From positions 2,232,001 through 2,296,000 of the forward strand of contig NC_019678.1 of NCBI RefSeq assembly GCF_000316665.1: a DNA stretch of 64,000 nt, given 5' to 3'. Source of the stretch: Rivularia sp. PCC 7116 (GTDB lineage: Bacteria > Cyanobacteriota > Cyanobacteriia > Cyanobacteriales > Nostocaceae). The first letter of the stretch is position 1. Every line of letters begins with the position of its first letter. Under the pieces are notes generated by a model, which made no database searches, was not told the origin of the DNA, and worked only from the letters and a program-made list of their open reading frames with translations. Positions 24,887-32,547 of this stretch are shown here, piece by piece. The position numbers were made by a program, and so were the translations under genes.

Positions 24887-27655
24887 CTACACCTGATAAA
24901 CCTTTAATATTTCATCACCATAGTGATTAATCACCTTAACCGCAATCTTCCCAGGTTTACCGTTTTTATTTCGGGGTGAGTCAAAAGGACGGCTAATAGC
25001 AGAATAAAGGTCTAACCATGCATCTTGATCAACTTCTGCTTTCAGAGTTTTCCTAAGCTTTTCATAGGGTTTATTTGCTCCAGTAAAATAAGCATGACGT
25101 ACAAAAAAACTTTCACCGTTGTAGTTGGTGTCGATGAACCAGCAAGCAATATCATTTATTGAACTGCTGCGGATTTCGCCAGTGGTGGGGTCGTAAATAT
25201 CTAAACCCTTTAGTTCTACGGTAATTTTGCCATCATCAAGATGTTGGACTTCAATATCTGGTTCTCCAAAAACCATGAACAAGTTACCCGAACCAGTTTT
25301 TTTAAGTACTTCATCACCTAGAAGTAAATCGGGATTCATTTTAGTAACTAATACTTGTAACTTACCGTAGCGTTTAGATTCTTCGGATACGCCAGGGTCA
25401 AATGCAAAACCACAGACAATCAGCAAATCATAGCTTATCCCTTGTACTGCTTCTTTGGCTGCTTCTTTGATTTGGTCGGAGCCAACTGTACCGTATTCCG
25501 GACCAATAGAAACTGCAACTCGTTTTACCGTACCATCTTTTTCGGTATATTCTCCTTCTGCTTGTATCCATTCACTAGCATAAGGTTCAAGGGAATCAAA
25601 TTTCAGTCGTTCACCTTTCTTAGTATTTTGAACTCCTGCTTTCCTTAAGTTCTCAATAATCCTAAATTCAAACTGGTCAGATGCTTGCTGTGTGGCTTCT
25701 GCCTCTGAAGCTGGTTGTTCTGAGTTAGTAGAAAGGACACGGTGTGGTGATAAACTTTCTACAGTAAACGGACCTGTTACTCGTAACCGCTTTTTATCTT
25801 CGTAGGGTTGGTCGTAAAGGATTTCACTATCCGAATTGAGAGCGATAGATTCATCAATTTTTTTCTGACGTTCTTGTCTTAGCTTCCACCACTGCTGTAA
25901 TAGGTCTTTGGCTTCCTGCGACCATTTATTTTCTGGTTCTCTAGGTATTTCCCATTCTTCCCACTTTTTCTTAAGGAGTTTATTTAACTGGGTACTGATG
26001 GGTTCTAGTTTTTGTTGATACTTTTCGTGAATCGTATCGATTTCTGGATTGTTGGCGATCGCTTTTAAGGTGATGTGAGGTACGCGCTTATAAACAAAGC
26101 CTTTTTTGATGTCGTTTTCAGTTTTGATATTGGTTGGTGGTAATTTTGTGGTAATTTCTGTTTCTTTTTTTATACCCTCTGTGGAATCAGCAAGTAGGTA
26201 GTAGGGGAATTGGGCTGACATAAGACGGGTTCTAGCTAATGCTAAAGCTACGCGACTGGTATCGATGGTAATCCAGCGTCTTCCCCATTGTTCAGCGACG
26301 TAGGCTGTGGTAGCACTTCCCATAGTTGGATCGAGTACAATATCGCCTGGGTCAGTAGTCATCAAAATGCAGCGTTCAACAACTTTGGGGGATGTTTCGA
26401 CTACATAAGACTTTTGAGTGCCGAGTTGTACTGAGTCCCACCTGTCAGTTAGTGGAATTACAGGAAAATCATCAGAAAAACGTCGATAGCGTAAAACAGT
26501 ACCAAGTTTTTCGATGCGATCGCAAGATGCCAGTCTTTTTAGCCCTTCAACTGTTGTTTTCCAATGTGTACCATTTCTAGGATTGTATGTTTTACCTGCA
26601 AAGACAAATTTTTGCTCTTTATTACTATTCCCATCAGAGTACAAGGCAGAAAGTTGATAACGTTTAGATAGCTCTGGAATCTTTCCTGTAGATATTTCTT
26701 CTTTTTTTAATCTTCTTGTTGAGCCATCAGAAAAAAGCAATTGATCGTATCTATCGAGAGATTTTTCTCCAATTTCTCTCTGTTGAAAAAGTGGTCTAAA
26801 CTTTACTAAATCAATATTTTTAGAGTACCAAATTAAGTAGTCTAGTGTCGATGCAAGTATTTTTGAATCATGACCACTAGTCTTTTGAAAAGGAATAATT
26901 TTACAAAAGTTTTCCCTGCCGTAAACTTCATCCATCAAGCATCTAACGAGATGAACATTTTCATCACTAATTTGTACAAAAACACTACCAGTTTCTGTTA
27001 ATAACTCCCTCGCAACAACTAACCTATCTCTTAAATAACTCAAGTAAGAATGTATCCCTAATTCCCAAGTATCTCGAAAAGCTTTTACTTGCTCCGGTTG
27101 TCGGGTTGCTTCCTCAGCTTTACCATCTTTAACGTCTCGCTTACGAGTAGATACCTGCCAGTTTGAGCCAAACCTAATCCCATAAGGGGGGTCCATATAA
27201 ATTGTTTGCACTTTACCCCTTAACCCTTCCTTCTCAGCTAAAGAAGCCATCACCGACAATGAGTCACCTAGAATCATACGGTTAGTCCAACTAACCCCTT
27301 CTTTGTGTTGATAAAAATCAATTAATTTCTCAAATGCTAAACCATTAAAATCACCAAACAAACTTAATTGCTCTGCTTTTTCTTGTTTAGCCTGAGTACG
27401 AAAGTCTTCAATTAATGCTTGAGGATGAATTTTTTCTTGAATATAAATTGGAACTGCGGAAACTTCTAAATCTTCTTTATCCTGTTCGTCTTTCGTATTC
27501 CAAACTAACTGAGGGTCTAAAGATATATCGCGAGAATATAGTAAATTTGTAGGCTTTTTCTCTTCCTCTGATAAAAAATCGCGCAGTTCTTCTGTAGGAA
27601 TATTTGCTCTTTTCTCTTTATGCTTAACAGTATTAATTTGAGTTTTTTTAGACAT
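24887..27655 (-). CDS. Modification methyltransferase of a Res/Mod restriction system
   Basis: The 922-residue protein has an amino-MTase catalytic motif IYMDPPYGIRFG at about 152-163 and, later, the AdoMet motif DIVLDPTMGSATTAYVAEQW near 456. The order (DPPY before the AdoMet loop) is that of beta-class N6-adenine/N4-cytosine MTases, as in type III Mod subunits. The C-terminal 400 residues would carry target recognition and subunit contacts. It lies 59 bases downstream of the helicase-nuclease gene on the same strand. At 922 residues it is longer than typical Mod (about 600-700). Confidence 0.9.
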   Translation of the reverse strand: MSKKTQINTVKHKEKRANIPTEELRDFLSEEEKKPTNLLYSRDISLDPQLVWNTKDEQDKEDLEVSAVPIYIQEKIHPQALIEDFRTQAKQEKAEQLSLFGDFNGLAFEKLIDFYQHKEGVSWTNRMILGDSLSVMASLAEKEGLRGKVQTIYMDPPYGIRFGSNWQVSTRKRDVKDGKAEEATRQPEQVKAFRDTWELGIHSYLSYLRDRLVVARELLTETGSVFVQISDENVHLVRCLMDEVYGRENFCKIIPFQKTSGHDSKILASTLDYLIWYSKNIDLVKFRPLFQQREIGEKSLDRYDQLLFSDGSTRRLKKEEISTGKIPELSKRYQLSALYSDGNSNKEQKFVFAGKTYNPRNGTHWKTTVEGLKRLASCDRIEKLGTVLRYRRFSDDFPVIPLTDRWDSVQLGTQKSYVVETSPKVVERCILMTTDPGDIVLDPTMGSATTAYVAEQWGRRWITIDTSRVALALARTRLMSAQFPYYLLADSTEGIKKETEITTKLPPTNIKTENDIKKGFVYKRVPHITLKAIANNPEIDTIHEKYQQKLEPISTQLNKLLKKKWEEWEIPREPENKWSQEAKDLLQQWWKLRQERQKKIDESIALNSDSEILYDQPYEDKKRLRVTGPFTVESLSPHRVLSTNSEQPASEAEATQQASDQFEFRIIENLRKAGVQNTKKGERLKFDSLEPYASEWIQAEGEYTEKDGTVKRVAVSIGPEYGTVGSDQIKEAAKEAVQGISYDLLIVCGFAFDPGVSEESKRYGKLQVLVTKMNPDLLLGDEVLKKTGSGNLFMVFGEPDIEVQHLDDGKITVELKGLDIYDPTTGEIRSSSINDIACWFIDTNYNGESFFVRHAYFTGANKPYEKLRKTLKAEVDQDAWLDLYSAISRPFDSPRNKNGKPGKIAVKVINHYGDEILKVYQV

Positions 27656-27714: not shown

Positions 27715-30700
27715 TTAAGCCGCTTGAAGATTGCCGACAGTAGACTGTTTACTGTAATCAGCGCTAATAAAAGTCCGAACAGTATTTTCTGCATCCCAAG
27801 GATCGGTAATTTCAATAAAATTCCATCGACCGAAACCACCGTGCCGATTAATTGCTGGTATCCAAAGATTACTAGTAGTTGCAACCTTAATTGCTTTGTC
27901 TCTTCTTGCTTCTCCAGATACTTCTACAATTAAATTCAACAAGTCACCTTGACCGTCATCAACTTTCACAATGAAATCAGGCATATAGTTCTTTTGCTGA
28001 CCTTTCAAGGTATAGGGAATTAAGAAACCAAGTCCTTGATTCTTGACATAACAAACTACTTCTTCCATGTCTTCTAATACCTGTGCCATCTTCTGTTCCC
28101 AACTATTAGTATCAGCAACAACATGAGAAATATGGCATTTATGAAGGTCGGTAATATAAGTTGGACGAGCGGTACTAAAGTCTACGTAACGAGTAGACCC
28201 CATCGGGTCATAAGGACGTAAAATCGGTTTTAAAGATTTTTCTTTTTCACCAGCAACTATAGCTTGATAAATACAATCTGAAGCATCATGGGCAAATTCA
28301 TTTAACAGTAATAATTGGGAATATGTTCCAGATTTATAGGTAACGCATTCTTTTATCCATTGCTTAGCTATCTGTAATACTTGAGGGAATAACCAAACTT
28401 GTACCTCAGAATCATCAAGAGAATAATTTTCTAGCTTTTCTTGCTTTTGAGTACCGTCTTGACGAAAATATTTCTCTAAAGTTAACTTTGCTAATAAAAA
28501 AGCGACTTCTTGTTCTCTGCGTGTTTTCAAGTCATCAAGAGTGTGAATACTTGATTTACCAATAATTGGAGCATTTTCGGTTTTGGTGGGTAAATTGTCT
28601 GTAGACAAAGAATATTTACAACCAGGTTTATTAAAATCTGGTGTCAGTTTTTGGCTCTTTATTTCGTAACGGTAGCCCAACAACCGAGGGAAAGTTATCT
28701 CATAATCAATTCGTTCTGGAAGTGCGCGGACGCGGGTAGGTAATGCTCCTCGTTTTGGTTGTTTATTAGAACCTGCACAAGGAATAAAGGCAAAGGGAAC
28801 ACCGTAGACTTCCGCATACTCTGGGGTAAAAGACTCAATTTCAATACTCTTACCATTGACGTTAATTTGATTAACGGTAGGAGTATAACTAATGCGTCTT
28901 AAACCTCTTCCTACAACTTGTTCGCATAAAAGCTGAGTACCAAATGCTCTCACCCCTAAAATGTGGGTAACTGTATTAGCATCCCAACCTTCGGTCAGCA
29001 TCGAAACTGAAACAACACAACGAATATGTTCGCCTAATTTACCGGATTTACCAACAGTGTTTAACACCTCACGTAACAAGTCTTCATTGGTAATTTTATC
29101 CGGGTCTTGACCTGGGTATCTTACCCGATAATCAGCTTTAAACTCTTCTATCTCCCGCGCAGCTAATTTCTTAAATTCATCGCTCATGGCTTCCCCAGAC
29201 TCTAACTGCTTGCTATCTACCAAAATAGTGTTAGGTCTAGCTGTCCAATTCCTATCTTTGACATTGTTAAATAAGGTTAATTGTCCAGGAGCTAAAACAG
29301 GTCTTTTGTCTGGGTAAACTTTACCAGTGTCCCAACCAGAGATATAGTCATAAACCATCTTGGAAACGCTAGTGTTGTTGCAAACTAAGATAAACACCGG
29401 GGGTGTTAATCCCTTACTCTGTGCATCAGTATTTTCTAACCACTGATGATAAAGATTTTCATAGTTACCATACAGTGTCCGTAATGCCCCTTCTAATTCT
29501 TTGGGTAACTTCGGTTCTGGTGTAGATGGCTCGCTTTCCTTCTTACTTCTCCCCTTTTTGGGTAAATGGTCGCGAATCAAATTCCAAATATTGCGATAAG
29601 TAGGCAATTCACCCTTCATACTATCGTCGGAAACTGGTACGCGGGGGATTTTGACAATACCAGATTCAATAGCATCAATTAAAGAAAAATCAGATACCAC
29701 CCAAGGAAATAATGTTCCTTCCTTGTAACCAGAACCCTTCAAGAAAAATGGAGTTGCAGAAAGGTCATAAACTACCTTTACCCCCAACTTCTGTTGTATT
29801 GCTTCTAACCCAGAAATCCAGATTCTAGCTTCCTCTTCGTTTTTCTTAGCTTCCTTTAAATCATCACCTTTATATTTTTCTTCATCACCACCAACACGAC
29901 GACGGTAACAGTGGTGTGCTTCATCATTAATGACAATAATATTTTTCTTTTTCCCCAGTCCCCGACATACCCTATTAACCATTTGGGATGGGGTTTCTGT
30001 AAATGGACTCTCTTTGTCTTGAATTAAAATGCTTTTAGTTAATTTACCAACATTAGTATGTTCTCTTAATTGAAAAGCATGATAGTTAGTGATAATAATC
30101 TTGGCTTTCTCTAAATCTGGCAATAAATCAGCAGGAACTAAATCTAACTTCTTATAATAATTTTCTGGGTCATTAGGCTGAATTACACGCAGGCGATCGC
30201 GAATTGTAATCCCTGGTGCTACAACTAAAAAAGTATCGCTAAACTTTTTAGATTGGGGGTTAGCAATCTTATTGAGCGAATGCCAAGCAATTAGCATCGA
30301 CATCAAAACTGTTTTACCAGTACCAGTTGCCATCTTCAACGCTTGACGAAATAGCAACGGATTAGCATCGTCTTTAAATTTGTTCAGATCATTTTCAATC
30401 CAAGTCTCCCCAGACTTTTTTGCAACTTCATTTATGTAAATAACTGTTTCTAAAGCCTCAATCTGACAAAAGAATAACCGTCTTTCTCGTTCTGGATTTG
30501 TCCAATGCTCTAATAACCGCCGCGTTATTGGTGTGATATTCGTATGACCGCGATAACCACCACACCGCCACGATGAAACGAGAATGCGAATATCATTAAT
30601 AAATTTATTTTCCTCTATTCGGTCTTGCGTCCATGAACCAAAATCAAGCTCTAGCTGCTTATCTTTTTTCTTAGGCTGGGCAATAGGAATAAAATATTGG

Positions 30701-30819
30701 CTTTTACGCCTTTGTTCAATAATATCGTTAGTAATACCATCATCACCAAAGCGAAAATGCCGTTGAGGTTCAGTAAATGGCGAATTAATAATTGGGTTTT
30801 CAATAATGACCTGTTCCAC
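27715..30819 (-). CDS. DEAD/DEAH helicase-nuclease (Res) of a type III-like restriction system
   Basis: The protein has Walker A MATGTGKTVLMSML (about 165), a DEAH-like motif VINDEAHHCYRR, SATPFFLKGS, a late helicase block (SMLTEGWDANTVTHILGVRA), and a C-terminal PD-(D/E)xK-like nuclease (MPDFIVKVDD...LIVEVSGE). It resembles the BPTD_3080 family of restriction endonucleases. The GTG at 30819 is taken as start because it begins EQVIIENPIINSPF, as I recall for homologs; the frame is open to an ATG at 30879. Res precedes Mod in one transcript. The canonical nuclease Lys is Ser here (E-V-S). Confidence 0.88.
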   Translation of the reverse strand: MEQVIIENPIINSPFTEPQRHFRFGDDGITNDIIEQRRKSQYFIPIAQPKKKDKQLELDFGSWTQDRIEENKFINDIRILVSSWRCGGYRGHTNITPITRRLLEHWTNPERERRLFFCQIEALETVIYINEVAKKSGETWIENDLNKFKDDANPLLFRQALKMATGTGKTVLMSMLIAWHSLNKIANPQSKKFSDTFLVVAPGITIRDRLRVIQPNDPENYYKKLDLVPADLLPDLEKAKIIITNYHAFQLREHTNVGKLTKSILIQDKESPFTETPSQMVNRVCRGLGKKKNIIVINDEAHHCYRRRVGGDEEKYKGDDLKEAKKNEEEARIWISGLEAIQQKLGVKVVYDLSATPFFLKGSGYKEGTLFPWVVSDFSLIDAIESGIVKIPRVPVSDDSMKGELPTYRNIWNLIRDHLPKKGRSKKESEPSTPEPKLPKELEGALRTLYGNYENLYHQWLENTDAQSKGLTPPVFILVCNNTSVSKMVYDYISGWDTGKVYPDKRPVLAPGQLTLFNNVKDRNWTARPNTILVDSKQLESGEAMSDEFKKLAAREIEEFKADYRVRYPGQDPDKITNEDLLREVLNTVGKSGKLGEHIRCVVSVSMLTEGWDANTVTHILGVRAFGTQLLCEQVVGRGLRRISYTPTVNQINVNGKSIEIESFTPEYAEVYGVPFAFIPCAGSNKQPKRGALPTRVRALPERIDYEITFPRLLGYRYEIKSQKLTPDFNKPGCKYSLSTDNLPTKTENAPIIGKSSIHTLDDLKTRREQEVAFLLAKLTLEKYFRQDGTQKQEKLENYSLDDSEVQVWLFPQVLQIAKQWIKECVTYKSGTYSQLLLLNEFAHDASDCIYQAIVAGEKEKSLKPILRPYDPMGSTRYVDFSTARPTYITDLHKCHISHVVADTNSWEQKMAQVLEDMEEVVCYVKNQGLGFLIPYTLKGQQKNYMPDFIVKVDDGQGDLLNLIVEVSGEARRDKAIKVATTSNLWIPAINRHGGFGRWNFIEITDPWDAENTVRTFISADYSKQSTVGNLQAA

Positions 30820-30879
30820 CGACCTATACCTTAAAAACAGCACATCAAAGCTGCGACTAATAGGTAAAATAAGGCGCAA

Positions 30880-31582: not shown

Positions 31583-32389
31583 TTATTCGATGAGTGAGTA
31601 GAGGTAAAGTACTCGCTCCCAAACAATTTGAGCAAGCCGTACATCTAAACAATTTCCAAGGGCTGCTCGACGAGTGCGAGTAATTCCGTTGCCGCTCGGT
31701 GTTCCTGTGGGGATGTCCATCTGATTGGCAGACCGAACTGTAGTTCTAGCCACTCTGGATTGAAAATTTCCTTCTTGCCGATTAACCCAATTTTCTTGGC
31801 TCTGCCTTCCGATTTGGTATTTCCAGGAGGTCGCCCTTTCCCACTCCAGCTTAAGGCTCCTGGACGTGGCAACGAGTAAGAGTCTTTCTCCCGACCATTT
31901 AGTTCCAAACCTCGATGTTCCGACAACAATCCATTCTGAATCATACCCACATTCATAAAGCTGCCGGAGCATCTGTAGAAAATATGTTCCGGGTTTTTCT
32001 CCTGGGTACTGGGGAGCCGACAATAATCCGGGTACATTTTCGAGACAGAAGAATTTGGGTTGGACTCTAGCAACAAGTCGCAACACTGCGGGGATACAGT
32101 CGCGTTCATCGGCTCCTCCCCTTCGATGCCCTTCAAGGCTAAAGGGTTGACATGGCGGAGATGCGGTAATTGTGTCGATTTCTCCCTTTTGAATTCGGAG
32201 GTCGCGCACCGAGTTGTAGATTGGCACACCGGGGAACCGTTTTTGCAAGATTTCTTTACAAAACTCGTCGATTTCACAGAGTCCGCATAGTTGGACTTTT
32301 CCTGTGATAATTCCGGAGAGGGGGAAACCGGCTCCAATTCCGCTGCACAAGTCAAGCACTCGGAGTTTTCCTTTTCCCATTTCTTCCAT
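31583..32389 (-). CDS. C5-cytosine DNA methyltransferase (compact)
   Basis: At 268 residues, this enzyme has AdoMet motif I (LRVLDLCSGIGAGFPLSG, about 9-26), motif IV with catalytic Cys (TASPPCQPFSLEGH, near 73), motif VI (FFCLENVPGLLS), and motif X (RRAALGNCLDVRLAQ, near 241). The target-recognition part between motifs VIII and IX is short. It methylates the C5 of cytosine at an unknown site and has no adjacent nuclease, so it is a solitary or protective MTase. For about 745 bases it shares DNA with another same-strand reading frame (31645-32547). The local GC content is higher than in its neighbours. Confidence 0.88.
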   Translation of the reverse strand: MEEMGKGKLRVLDLCSGIGAGFPLSGIITGKVQLCGLCEIDEFCKEILQKRFPGVPIYNSVRDLRIQKGEIDTITASPPCQPFSLEGHRRGGADERDCIPAVLRLVARVQPKFFCLENVPGLLSAPQYPGEKPGTYFLQMLRQLYECGYDSEWIVVGTSRFGTKWSGERLLLVATSRSLKLEWERATSWKYQIGRQSQENWVNRQEGNFQSRVARTTVRSANQMDIPTGTPSGNGITRTRRAALGNCLDVRLAQIVWERVLYLYSLIE

Positions 32390-32547
32390 GCCTCCTCATA
32401 TTCGATTAAGGTGTCATAATCATCCGGTTCTGGTGGTTCAATACTGTCATCCCAAAAAATCAAAGGATTTCCATCGGAGTCAAGTTTGCGCGGCATTTCT
32501 CCAAAATGCGCCGGATTCCAACGGTCAGACTGAGAAATTTCTTTCAC
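31645..32547 (-). CDS. Overlapping-frame protein covering most of the methyltransferase gene
   Basis: The 300-residue frame starts 158 bases before the methyltransferase start and runs within it, in a different frame, for about 745 bases. Its N-terminus (SQSDRWNPAHFGEMPRKL, then EPPEPDDYDTLIEYEEAWKK) reads as real protein. Its C-terminus has LPRPGALSWSGKGRPPGNTK and FNPEWLELQFGLPIRWTSPQ. From memory, both resemble a conserved cyanobacterial mobile-element family whose C-terminus echoes the NPxW-x3-GxPxGW block of phage cytosine MTases. The middle (about 85-190) is Ser/Cys/Pro-rich and shows no fold. I cannot run a search, so coding status is strong at both ends and unproven in the middle. Confidence 0.65.
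   Translation of the reverse strand: MKEISQSDRWNPAHFGEMPRKLDSDGNPLIFWDDSIEPPEPDDYDTLIEYEEAWKKWEKENSECLTCAAELEPVSPSPELSQEKSNYADSVKSTSFVKKSCKNGSPVCQSTTRCATSEFKREKSTQLPHLRHVNPLALKGIEGEEPMNATVSPQCCDLLLESNPNSSVSKMYPDYCRLPSTQEKNPEHIFYRCSGSFMNVGMIQNGLLSEHRGLELNGREKDSYSLPRPGALSWSGKGRPPGNTKSEGRAKKIGLIGKKEIFNPEWLELQFGLPIRWTSPQEHRAATELLALVEQPLEIV

Follow-up and report, generated by a model that had tools for sequence, protein, structure and literature searches.

The closest described systems are two DNA methyltransferases: M.EcoHK31I, whose two genes overlap in different frames, and M.AquI, whose source, Agmenellum quadruplicatum, is a cyanobacterium. Both M.EcoHK31I (YGGCCR) and M.AquI (CYCGRG) consist of two polypeptides; the available part of PMC3404938 assigns motifs I-VIII, motif X and a predicted recognition domain to the large subunit of M.EcoHK31I and only motif IX to its small subunit, the small subunit of M.AquI carrying motifs IX-X. 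In the accessible text of PMC3439449, EcoHK31I is termed naturally split. Coding hidden in another frame is also described, in an excerpt of PMC11855218, for the ShiLan element, an HNH endonuclease lying out of frame in a phage methylase. Moreover, an excess of long phase-1 overlaps in bacteria has been ascribed to composition alone (PMC2542354, in its available part). The accessible portion of PMC6456624 contains nothing on gene layout. The arrangement presented below was not found as a widespread class in the titles and abstract openings of the open-access literature, a search-limited result that is no proof of absence.

The locus lies in a window of 64,000 nucleotides (the whole stretch of DNA that was analysed) from Rivularia sp. 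PCC 7116. Judged from comparison of sequences, it is most likely a naturally split, heterodimeric C5 methyltransferase with its subunits, alpha and beta, in two frames of the same DNA. The basis for this reading is that both frames are conserved and constrained, that the motifs follow in order along the DNA and that one-frame counterparts exist. An earlier, sequence-only reading had given the coordinates and lengths of the two frames and their 745-base same-strand overlap correctly; the strand of both is minus. The features are as follows.

31583..32389, minus strand: alpha, C5-methyltransferase catalytic chain with motifs I-VIII and X (PF00145, 1.4e-30; open reading frame; alignment)
31645..32547, minus strand: beta, putative motif-IX-bearing partner, 300 aa, GTG start (open reading frame; relatives L003, L004)
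31645..32389, minus strand: dual-coding overlap, 745 bases, beta in +1 relative to alpha
32390..32547, minus strand: beta-only N-terminal region of ~53 codons, protein-like in relatives
32391..32397, minus strand: internal Shine-Dalgarno GAGGAGG, inside the beta coding sequence and upstream of the alpha start
32150..32155, minus strand: catalytic Pro-Cys of alpha motif IV, residues 79-80, invariant in alignment A1
31813..31863, minus strand: beta PGALSWSGKGRPPGNTK block, conserved in alignment A2
31714..31764, minus strand: beta block FNPEWLELQFGLPIRWT, putative motif IX (alignment A2, relatives; HhaI motif IX from the PDB alignment)
31625..31666, minus strand: alpha motif X region AALGNCLDVRLAQI (alignment A1, G245 invariant)
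24887-27655 and 27715-30879, minus strand: Type III-like restriction-modification pair (PADLOC, ResIII domain)

Counted from its first ATG, alpha is 268 aa long. The Pfam match to PF00145 (1.4e-30) covers residues 10-190, and solved C5 methyltransferases of the M.HhaI and M.HaeIII type match over motifs I-VIII only. Motif I, the Pro-Cys of motif IV, the Glu-Asn of motif VI and the Arg of motif VIII are present and invariant in the 12 sequences of alignment A1; motif X is present as ALGNCLDVRLAQ, with G245 invariant. For the window alpha, neither A1 nor the match to solved enzymes reveals a motif IX, and by pattern none (0/80) of the best 80 of at least 588 viral relatives has one in alpha's frame. 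The methyltransferase had been described as complete from motif I to motif X; this has to be corrected, since motif IX is missing from its frame. As a yardstick, the alignment of the canonical phage methyltransferase P0005 with M.HhaI extends over motif IX (in HhaI, RKLHPRECARVMGYPDSY) and on to motif X.

The motif-IX-like block FNPEWLELQFGLPIRWT of beta is located, along the DNA, between alpha motifs VIII and X. Relatives of beta align over PGALS..G.RPPG.TK.E ... NP..L....G.P..W (A2), and the conserved cyanobacterial family that this frame had been said to resemble is real (GALS..G.RPPG.TK.E.....NP..L....G.P..W). The last block has the spacing of motif IX: Pro, seven residues, Gly, one residue, Pro. 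Neither Pfam nor NCBIfam matches beta at family cut-off. The match of PHROG_1008 to the window beta is weak (0.012) and covers residues 103-243, most of which lie in the shadow of alpha; values for other betas are 9.8e-17 (Halotia plasmid), 1.1e-7 (Nodularia phage) and 0.05 (Allocoleopsis plasmid). In Paenibacillus phage Tadhana, the nested frame, which contains LNPDWVECLMGFPIGWT, clearly belongs to the family (1.6e-74). A search of 146 cyanobacterial genomes with this profile gave a match in 1, so it misses most cyanobacterial betas. With hhalign, the phage beta end matches the cyanobacterial beta end (1.1e-8) and the cyanobacterial beta matches the motif-IX block of L089 (1.2e-5); beta families against canonical methyltransferases are not significant (phage 0.21, in the correct register; cyanobacterial 0.43, misaligned), and a PDB sequence search with the beta alignment gave 0 matches.

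Two kinds of relatives connect the block with motif IX. In the viral proteins L089 and L183, motifs I-VIII, a WPTPxA-type stretch, LNPDWVECLMGFPIGWT or KLSPSFVELLMGFPLGWT, and motif X follow one another in a single open frame. The +1 frame of the cyanobacterial loci L201 and L205 contains a textbook motif IX (RRMTPSEYEKLQGFPVDWT and ...PPDWT, that is RRMTPSEYEKLQGFP(V/P)DWT), in the phase of the window, and their alphas end in LGNAV or IGNAV, which is motif X in alpha's frame. By position, by spacing and by comparison with these four, the beta block looks like motif IX. The five phage controls whose motif IX is in frame (L052, L053, L056, L058, L060) are without such a +1 motif under the strict pattern, and in four methyltransferases of the same genome (L035-L038) the open +1 stretch in the region never exceeds 67 codons.

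Shadow-frame similarity of beta opposite motifs IV-VIII, from profile and tblastn matches, was not counted as evidence, because the nested frame of the canonical P0006 also touches PHROG_1008 (0.04) and most of the listed plasmid and phage matches of the L201 beta cover only that part. PHROG_16143 matches the nested +1 frame of a canonical phage methyltransferase type. Viral scans with P0009 and P0002 gave nine pattern matches each, of which 0 were confirmed.

The probability of so long an open frame by chance had been put at 1e-5, which is too strong. When the alpha protein is kept fixed and its codons are permuted among synonyms, the +1 frame stays fully open in 86/20000 permutations (0.4%), so that openness at a single locus is modest evidence; the +2 frame of alpha in the window has 13 stops. 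Permutations reach the longest +1 open stretch in 4/3000 cases for L003, 1/3000 for L004, L009 and L054, and 0/3000 for L006, L046, L118 and L111. The raised local GC is confirmed, at 0.44-0.50 in 500-base steps over the overlap versus about 0.36-0.42 around it. The decisive evidence is the recurrence of the open +1 frame across loci, including 15/15 of the best alpha-selected cyanobacterial relatives.

A contig search of genomes gave three loci: L003 (Plectonema), L004 (Calothrix) and L005 (a second Calothrix locus). Both frames are intact in L003 and L004, with a full-length beta 77-79% identical to that of the window; L005 has only the first 71 residues of beta, without alpha. Like L002 (G000 C1:3606640-3606723), L005 is a remnant of the beta N-terminus without a methyltransferase, and a second copy of the 545-aa neighbour gene is also there. 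A beta search of 386 cyanobacterial genomes matched in 24, many by the N-terminal part only; loci L001-L050 are the fetched set, which covers this search in part. Among these loci, the alpha and beta profiles both match in 28; the pair is intact in 25, and all 25 share one phase (24 places, L001 being L034). The remaining three (L019, L026 and L033) are broken pairs whose fragments lie partly in other phases, and L028 has a weak beta match of 64 aa without alpha. The first ~60 residues of beta match same-order proteins at L010-L014, L018, L020-L023, L025 and L030, with no alpha in the fetched stretch; the N-terminal part may therefore be a mobile module. The layout of the pair varies among loci: staggered, beta nested in alpha, or alpha nested in beta. 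In L006-type loci, beta has long extra parts at both ends.

With alpha as sole query, 23 of 291 same-order genomes matched, in 25 rows including the window itself. The 15 best of the other rows (L184-L198) all have a motif-IX-like block and 0 stops in +1 between motif IV and the end of alpha; the counter-case envisaged by the sequence-only reading, a broken second frame beside an intact methyltransferase, did not occur among them. In L189 the pattern caught another stretch, L006 having LNPVILSEWYDIP at the same place, and in L198 the second Pro of the block is Ser. Some of these rows are the same places as loci of the fetched set (L186=L008, L188=L007, L189=L006, L191=L009, L197=L015), and the L198 alpha protein is that of the Allocoleopsis plasmid L042. 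Nine more distant rows (L199-L207) include L201 and L205. L199 is degraded. L200 has an intact-looking alpha and a +1 frame open for 221/252 codons, followed by two stops, with no recognised motif. L202 has an alpha that is short without being truncated by the fetched stretch, and a fully open +1 frame without the motif; in L203, L204, L206 and L207, +1 is fully open without the motif pattern.

In viruses, an IMG/VR scan with the alpha profile confirmed at least 588 relatives, of which the best 80, the nearest and not a random sample, were analysed. Past motif IV, 75 of these best 80 of at least 588 have 150 or more open codons in +1 and 0 have as many in +2, the medians being 259 versus 42.5 open codons. 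The strict motif IX pattern occurs in +1 in 53/80 and in +2 in 0/80, and the relaxed pattern in +1 in 69/80. Of the remaining 11, L102, L104 and L135 have a variant block in the tail; L174, L134, L136 and L181 have a long +1 frame without the motif, which in the last three reaches the sequence end; and L144 and L167 are cut off. In the other two, L160 and L180, motif IX and motif X are each in a frame of their own, apart from that of motifs I-VIII, through decay or further rearrangement.

A second viral set (n=41) was chosen by beta itself (Tadhana type) and is biased towards beta: alpha is found in 40/41, the relaxed +1 motif in 35/40 and a +1 frame of at least 150 codons in 30. L083 has a frame of at least 150 codons in +2, and L093 and L095 have neither the relaxed +1 motif nor a long +1 frame. 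Motif IX is in the frame of the alpha match in L076, L083 and L089, with motif X elsewhere in L076 and L083; L089 is the only clean one-frame case in this set. L055 (Streptomyces phage Euratis) has a second open frame with motifs IX and X, overlapping the first, an AquI-like split.

Matching plasmid records number 18 (E limit 0.1), all cyanobacterial. Gene tables were inspected for 11 of the 18 plasmid records and 1 of 9 Nodularia phage records. Of these 12, 6 annotate alpha without beta and 5 beta without alpha; the remaining 1 has both frames, with a beta shortened so that it begins close to the end of alpha. Because the gene tables of the plasmids are described as incomplete, a frame missing there may be annotated elsewhere. 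For Paenibacillus phage Tadhana both frames are annotated, and in other phages of this kind the match covers two annotated features.

Selection can be followed along the overlap. At alpha fourfold sites, 19/101 differ between the window and L003, versus 68/137 in the neighbour gene (p = 8e-7), and 18/87 versus 67/130 between L003 and L004 (p = 5e-6); between the window and L004 this suppression is absent (16/93 versus 32/157, p = 0.62). In the pooled run (deduplicated from 123 to 102 sequences, 33 pairs), SN/SS for beta is 0.48 [0.37-0.61] and NS/SS for alpha 0.45 [0.36-0.56], and the mock +2 frame gives ratios of 1.05 and 1.11. The neighbour gene read in a mock +1 frame has SN/SS of 0.80-0.91 and NN/NS of 0.60-0.75; the NN/NS of 0.54 for beta is weak on its own, because a gene without overlap already gives 0.60-0.75. 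SS sites are few (157), and transition-only SN/SS after motif VIII is 0.60 [0.37-1.15].

The clearest contrast lies inside the overlap, in the ratio of beta-changing to alpha-changing rates. Computed by block for 29 of the 33 pairs (the other 4 were dropped for want of a located motif IX), it amounts to 2.17 [1.90-2.53] for motifs I-VIII, 0.87 [0.73-1.01] between VIII and IX, 0.23 [0.10-0.45] at motif IX and 0.74 [0.46-1.54] after it. The fall from 2.17 to 0.23 indicates that the first part is held by alpha and the stretch at motif IX by beta. For the window trio, which comprises three non-independent pairs with 60-69 codon comparisons per later block, the corresponding values are 2.18, 0.15 [0.00-0.40] (69 codon comparisons), 0.00 and 0.52; here the stretch between VIII and IX is also held by beta. 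Viral pairs have 0.88 [0.74-1.01] between VIII and IX, which decides for neither chain. In the beta-only N-terminus, codon-position differences between the window and L003 are 0.09/0.04/0.30 and amino acid identity is 0.86-0.91 over three pairs, which bears out the description of this unique region of ~53 codons as protein-like.

It is very unlikely that only alpha is functional and that the beta frame is a shadow, open through codon usage and amino-acid composition. Such an explanation would cover the 86/20000 permutations in which the window +1 frame stays open and the alpha-shadow similarity opposite motifs IV-VIII, and composition can favour phase-1 overlaps, as stated in the available part of PMC2542354; it has to contend with the 0 stops in 15/15 best relatives and with mock +2 ratios of 1.05 and 1.11. 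In the canonical phage genes L052, L058 and L060, with motif IX in frame, +1 does stay open for 165, 160 and 141 codons, although it lacks the motif; these stretches exceed almost all permutations (0/3000, 0/3000 and 1/3000, respectively) and may be a relic or reflect codon context. However, a shadow would hardly be conserved outside the overlap, as the beta N-terminus is, or longer at both ends, as in L006-type betas, and at motif IX beta is the more conserved frame and alpha the less conserved one.

The GAGGAGG before the alpha ATGs consists of the same bases in the window, L003 and L004, and its spacing suggests that Met4, at 32380, is a likelier alpha start than the first ATG. Five L006-type loci (L006, L007, L008, L041, L048) have AGAGGAAAAATG at the alpha start; nothing as clear as an internal Shine-Dalgarno was found before alpha in L009, L042 and L044. 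The GTG start of the window beta is an ATG at the same place in Calothrix L004. The internal Shine-Dalgarno and the protein-like beta N-terminus therefore favour two independently started chains over frameshifting. Homologs, the selection seen in both frames and the start regions all support the dual coding proposed from the sequence. A single polypeptide made by programmed frameshifting, from the alpha frame to the beta frame and back, is highly improbable: it would suit the collinear order VIII (frame 0), IX (+1), X (0) and the one-frame versions L089 and L183, but two shifts would be required, the start region of beta is conserved in its own right, the beta N-terminus is unique, and some betas extend far beyond alpha. 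Indeed, M.EcoHK31I is two polypeptides according to the available part of PMC3404938.

Structure models bear neither for nor against the motif-IX assignment. The AlphaFold model of beta alone gives no usable fold, with a mean pLDDT of 46.8 and no PDB matches at E <= 0.001. That of the fused L089 has a mean pLDDT of 70.1 and a C5 methyltransferase core, with M.HaeIII and M.HhaI as best PDB matches; residues 169-254, 262-268 and 290-316 are below 50. The ten best matches span 164-169 columns (some others listed, up to 252), so the motif IX region falls outside the model comparison.

In L039 (Calothrix NIES-4101 plasmid; P0011), a single 813-aa open frame joins beta to KilA-N and N6-adenine methyltransferase (Dam) domains that follow it. 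These other domains, and the occurrence of the window beta N-terminal region elsewhere without an alpha match, would be expected if beta were a separate protein, such as a regulator or a DNA-binding protein, overlapping the methyltransferase by chance. There is scant probability of this, since what alpha is without, beta carries, the beta block sits between VIII and X in the one-frame proteins, and no such beta motif occurs in the 5 phage controls with in-frame motif IX. Finally, that the locus is a decayed methyltransferase, a frameshift relic without a working product, is exceedingly improbable: broken or degraded copies (L019/L033, L026, L199) and beta N-terminus remnants (L002, L005) do exist, but both window frames are open and constrained, and the pair persists in different genera, on plasmids and in phages.

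If the locus is a split enzyme, one messenger would carry both frames, and ribosomes would begin beta at the upstream GTG and alpha, independently, at the internal Shine-Dalgarno and ATG within beta. Alpha would give cofactor binding, the catalytic Pro-Cys, the Glu-Asn and motif X; beta would give motif IX and, probably, the larger share of target recognition. The two chains would join into one active enzyme, and neither alone should then methylate. The DNA would be held mainly by the alpha protein in the first part of the overlap and mainly by beta around motif IX. A single messenger, translation of both frames, a heterodimer, its activity, a target site and whether the enzyme is an orphan are matters of inference. 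The Type III-like pair adjoining alpha consists of a methyltransferase, Mod (PADLOC 7e-301), and a restriction subunit, Res (ResIII domain); L003 has a different gene at this position, so the alpha/beta pair is probably not part of the Type III system. Upstream of the pair, the window, L003 and L004 share two genes, of 545 aa and about 200 aa, that have no Pfam match above cut-off; L005 has similar ones.

On balance, we lean towards a large, old class of "frame-partitioned" C5 methyltransferases in phages, plasmids and cyanobacteria, in which one frame would carry catalysis and the other motif IX and recognition, constraint being handed along the DNA from one to the other. Split methyltransferases as a kind are already known; what looks new is how widely this form occurs, its different layouts, the extended betas and the handover of constraint. 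To our knowledge, long same-strand dual-coding pairs conserved across genera are rarely documented in bacteria. If such a class exists, gene callers that avoid long overlaps would drop or trim one half, and many apparent orphan methyltransferases in databases would be half-enzymes. Methyltransferase annotation and the matching of methylomes to genes may thus miss half of some enzymes. The recognition half would also be extendable by other domains (KilA-N and Dam in one case), with catalysis untouched. The likely joint function, the one-frame counterparts and the readable selective load make the origin and upkeep of overlapping genes directly testable here.

Alpha resembles the monomeric M.HhaI and M.HaeIII in motifs I-VIII but, unlike M.HhaI, does not have motif IX (RKLHPRECARVMGYPDSY in that enzyme) in the same chain. 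The Tadhana nested frame and the Halotia plasmid and Nodularia phage betas match PHROG_1008, annotated "DNA methyltransferase", the window beta (0.012, mostly alpha-shadowed) and the Allocoleopsis plasmid beta (0.05) standing further off. The locus shares with the ShiLan element, as far as the excerpt describes it, out-of-frame coding within a phage methylase gene; that element, however, is a mobile nuclease-encoding insertion and not the enzyme's own half. With M.AquI the locus would share a two-chain C5 methyltransferase, whereas the small chain of M.AquI, in the available account, has motif X together with motif IX; here X is part of alpha. The nearest likeness is to M.EcoHK31I, compared by its partial published description: motifs I-VIII and X would again be on one chain and motif IX, judged from sequence, on the second. 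In that account the recognition domain of M.EcoHK31I is predicted in the large subunit, whereas in the window trio the constraint between VIII and IX is that of beta; moreover, the window beta starts upstream of alpha, with an extra N-terminal part.
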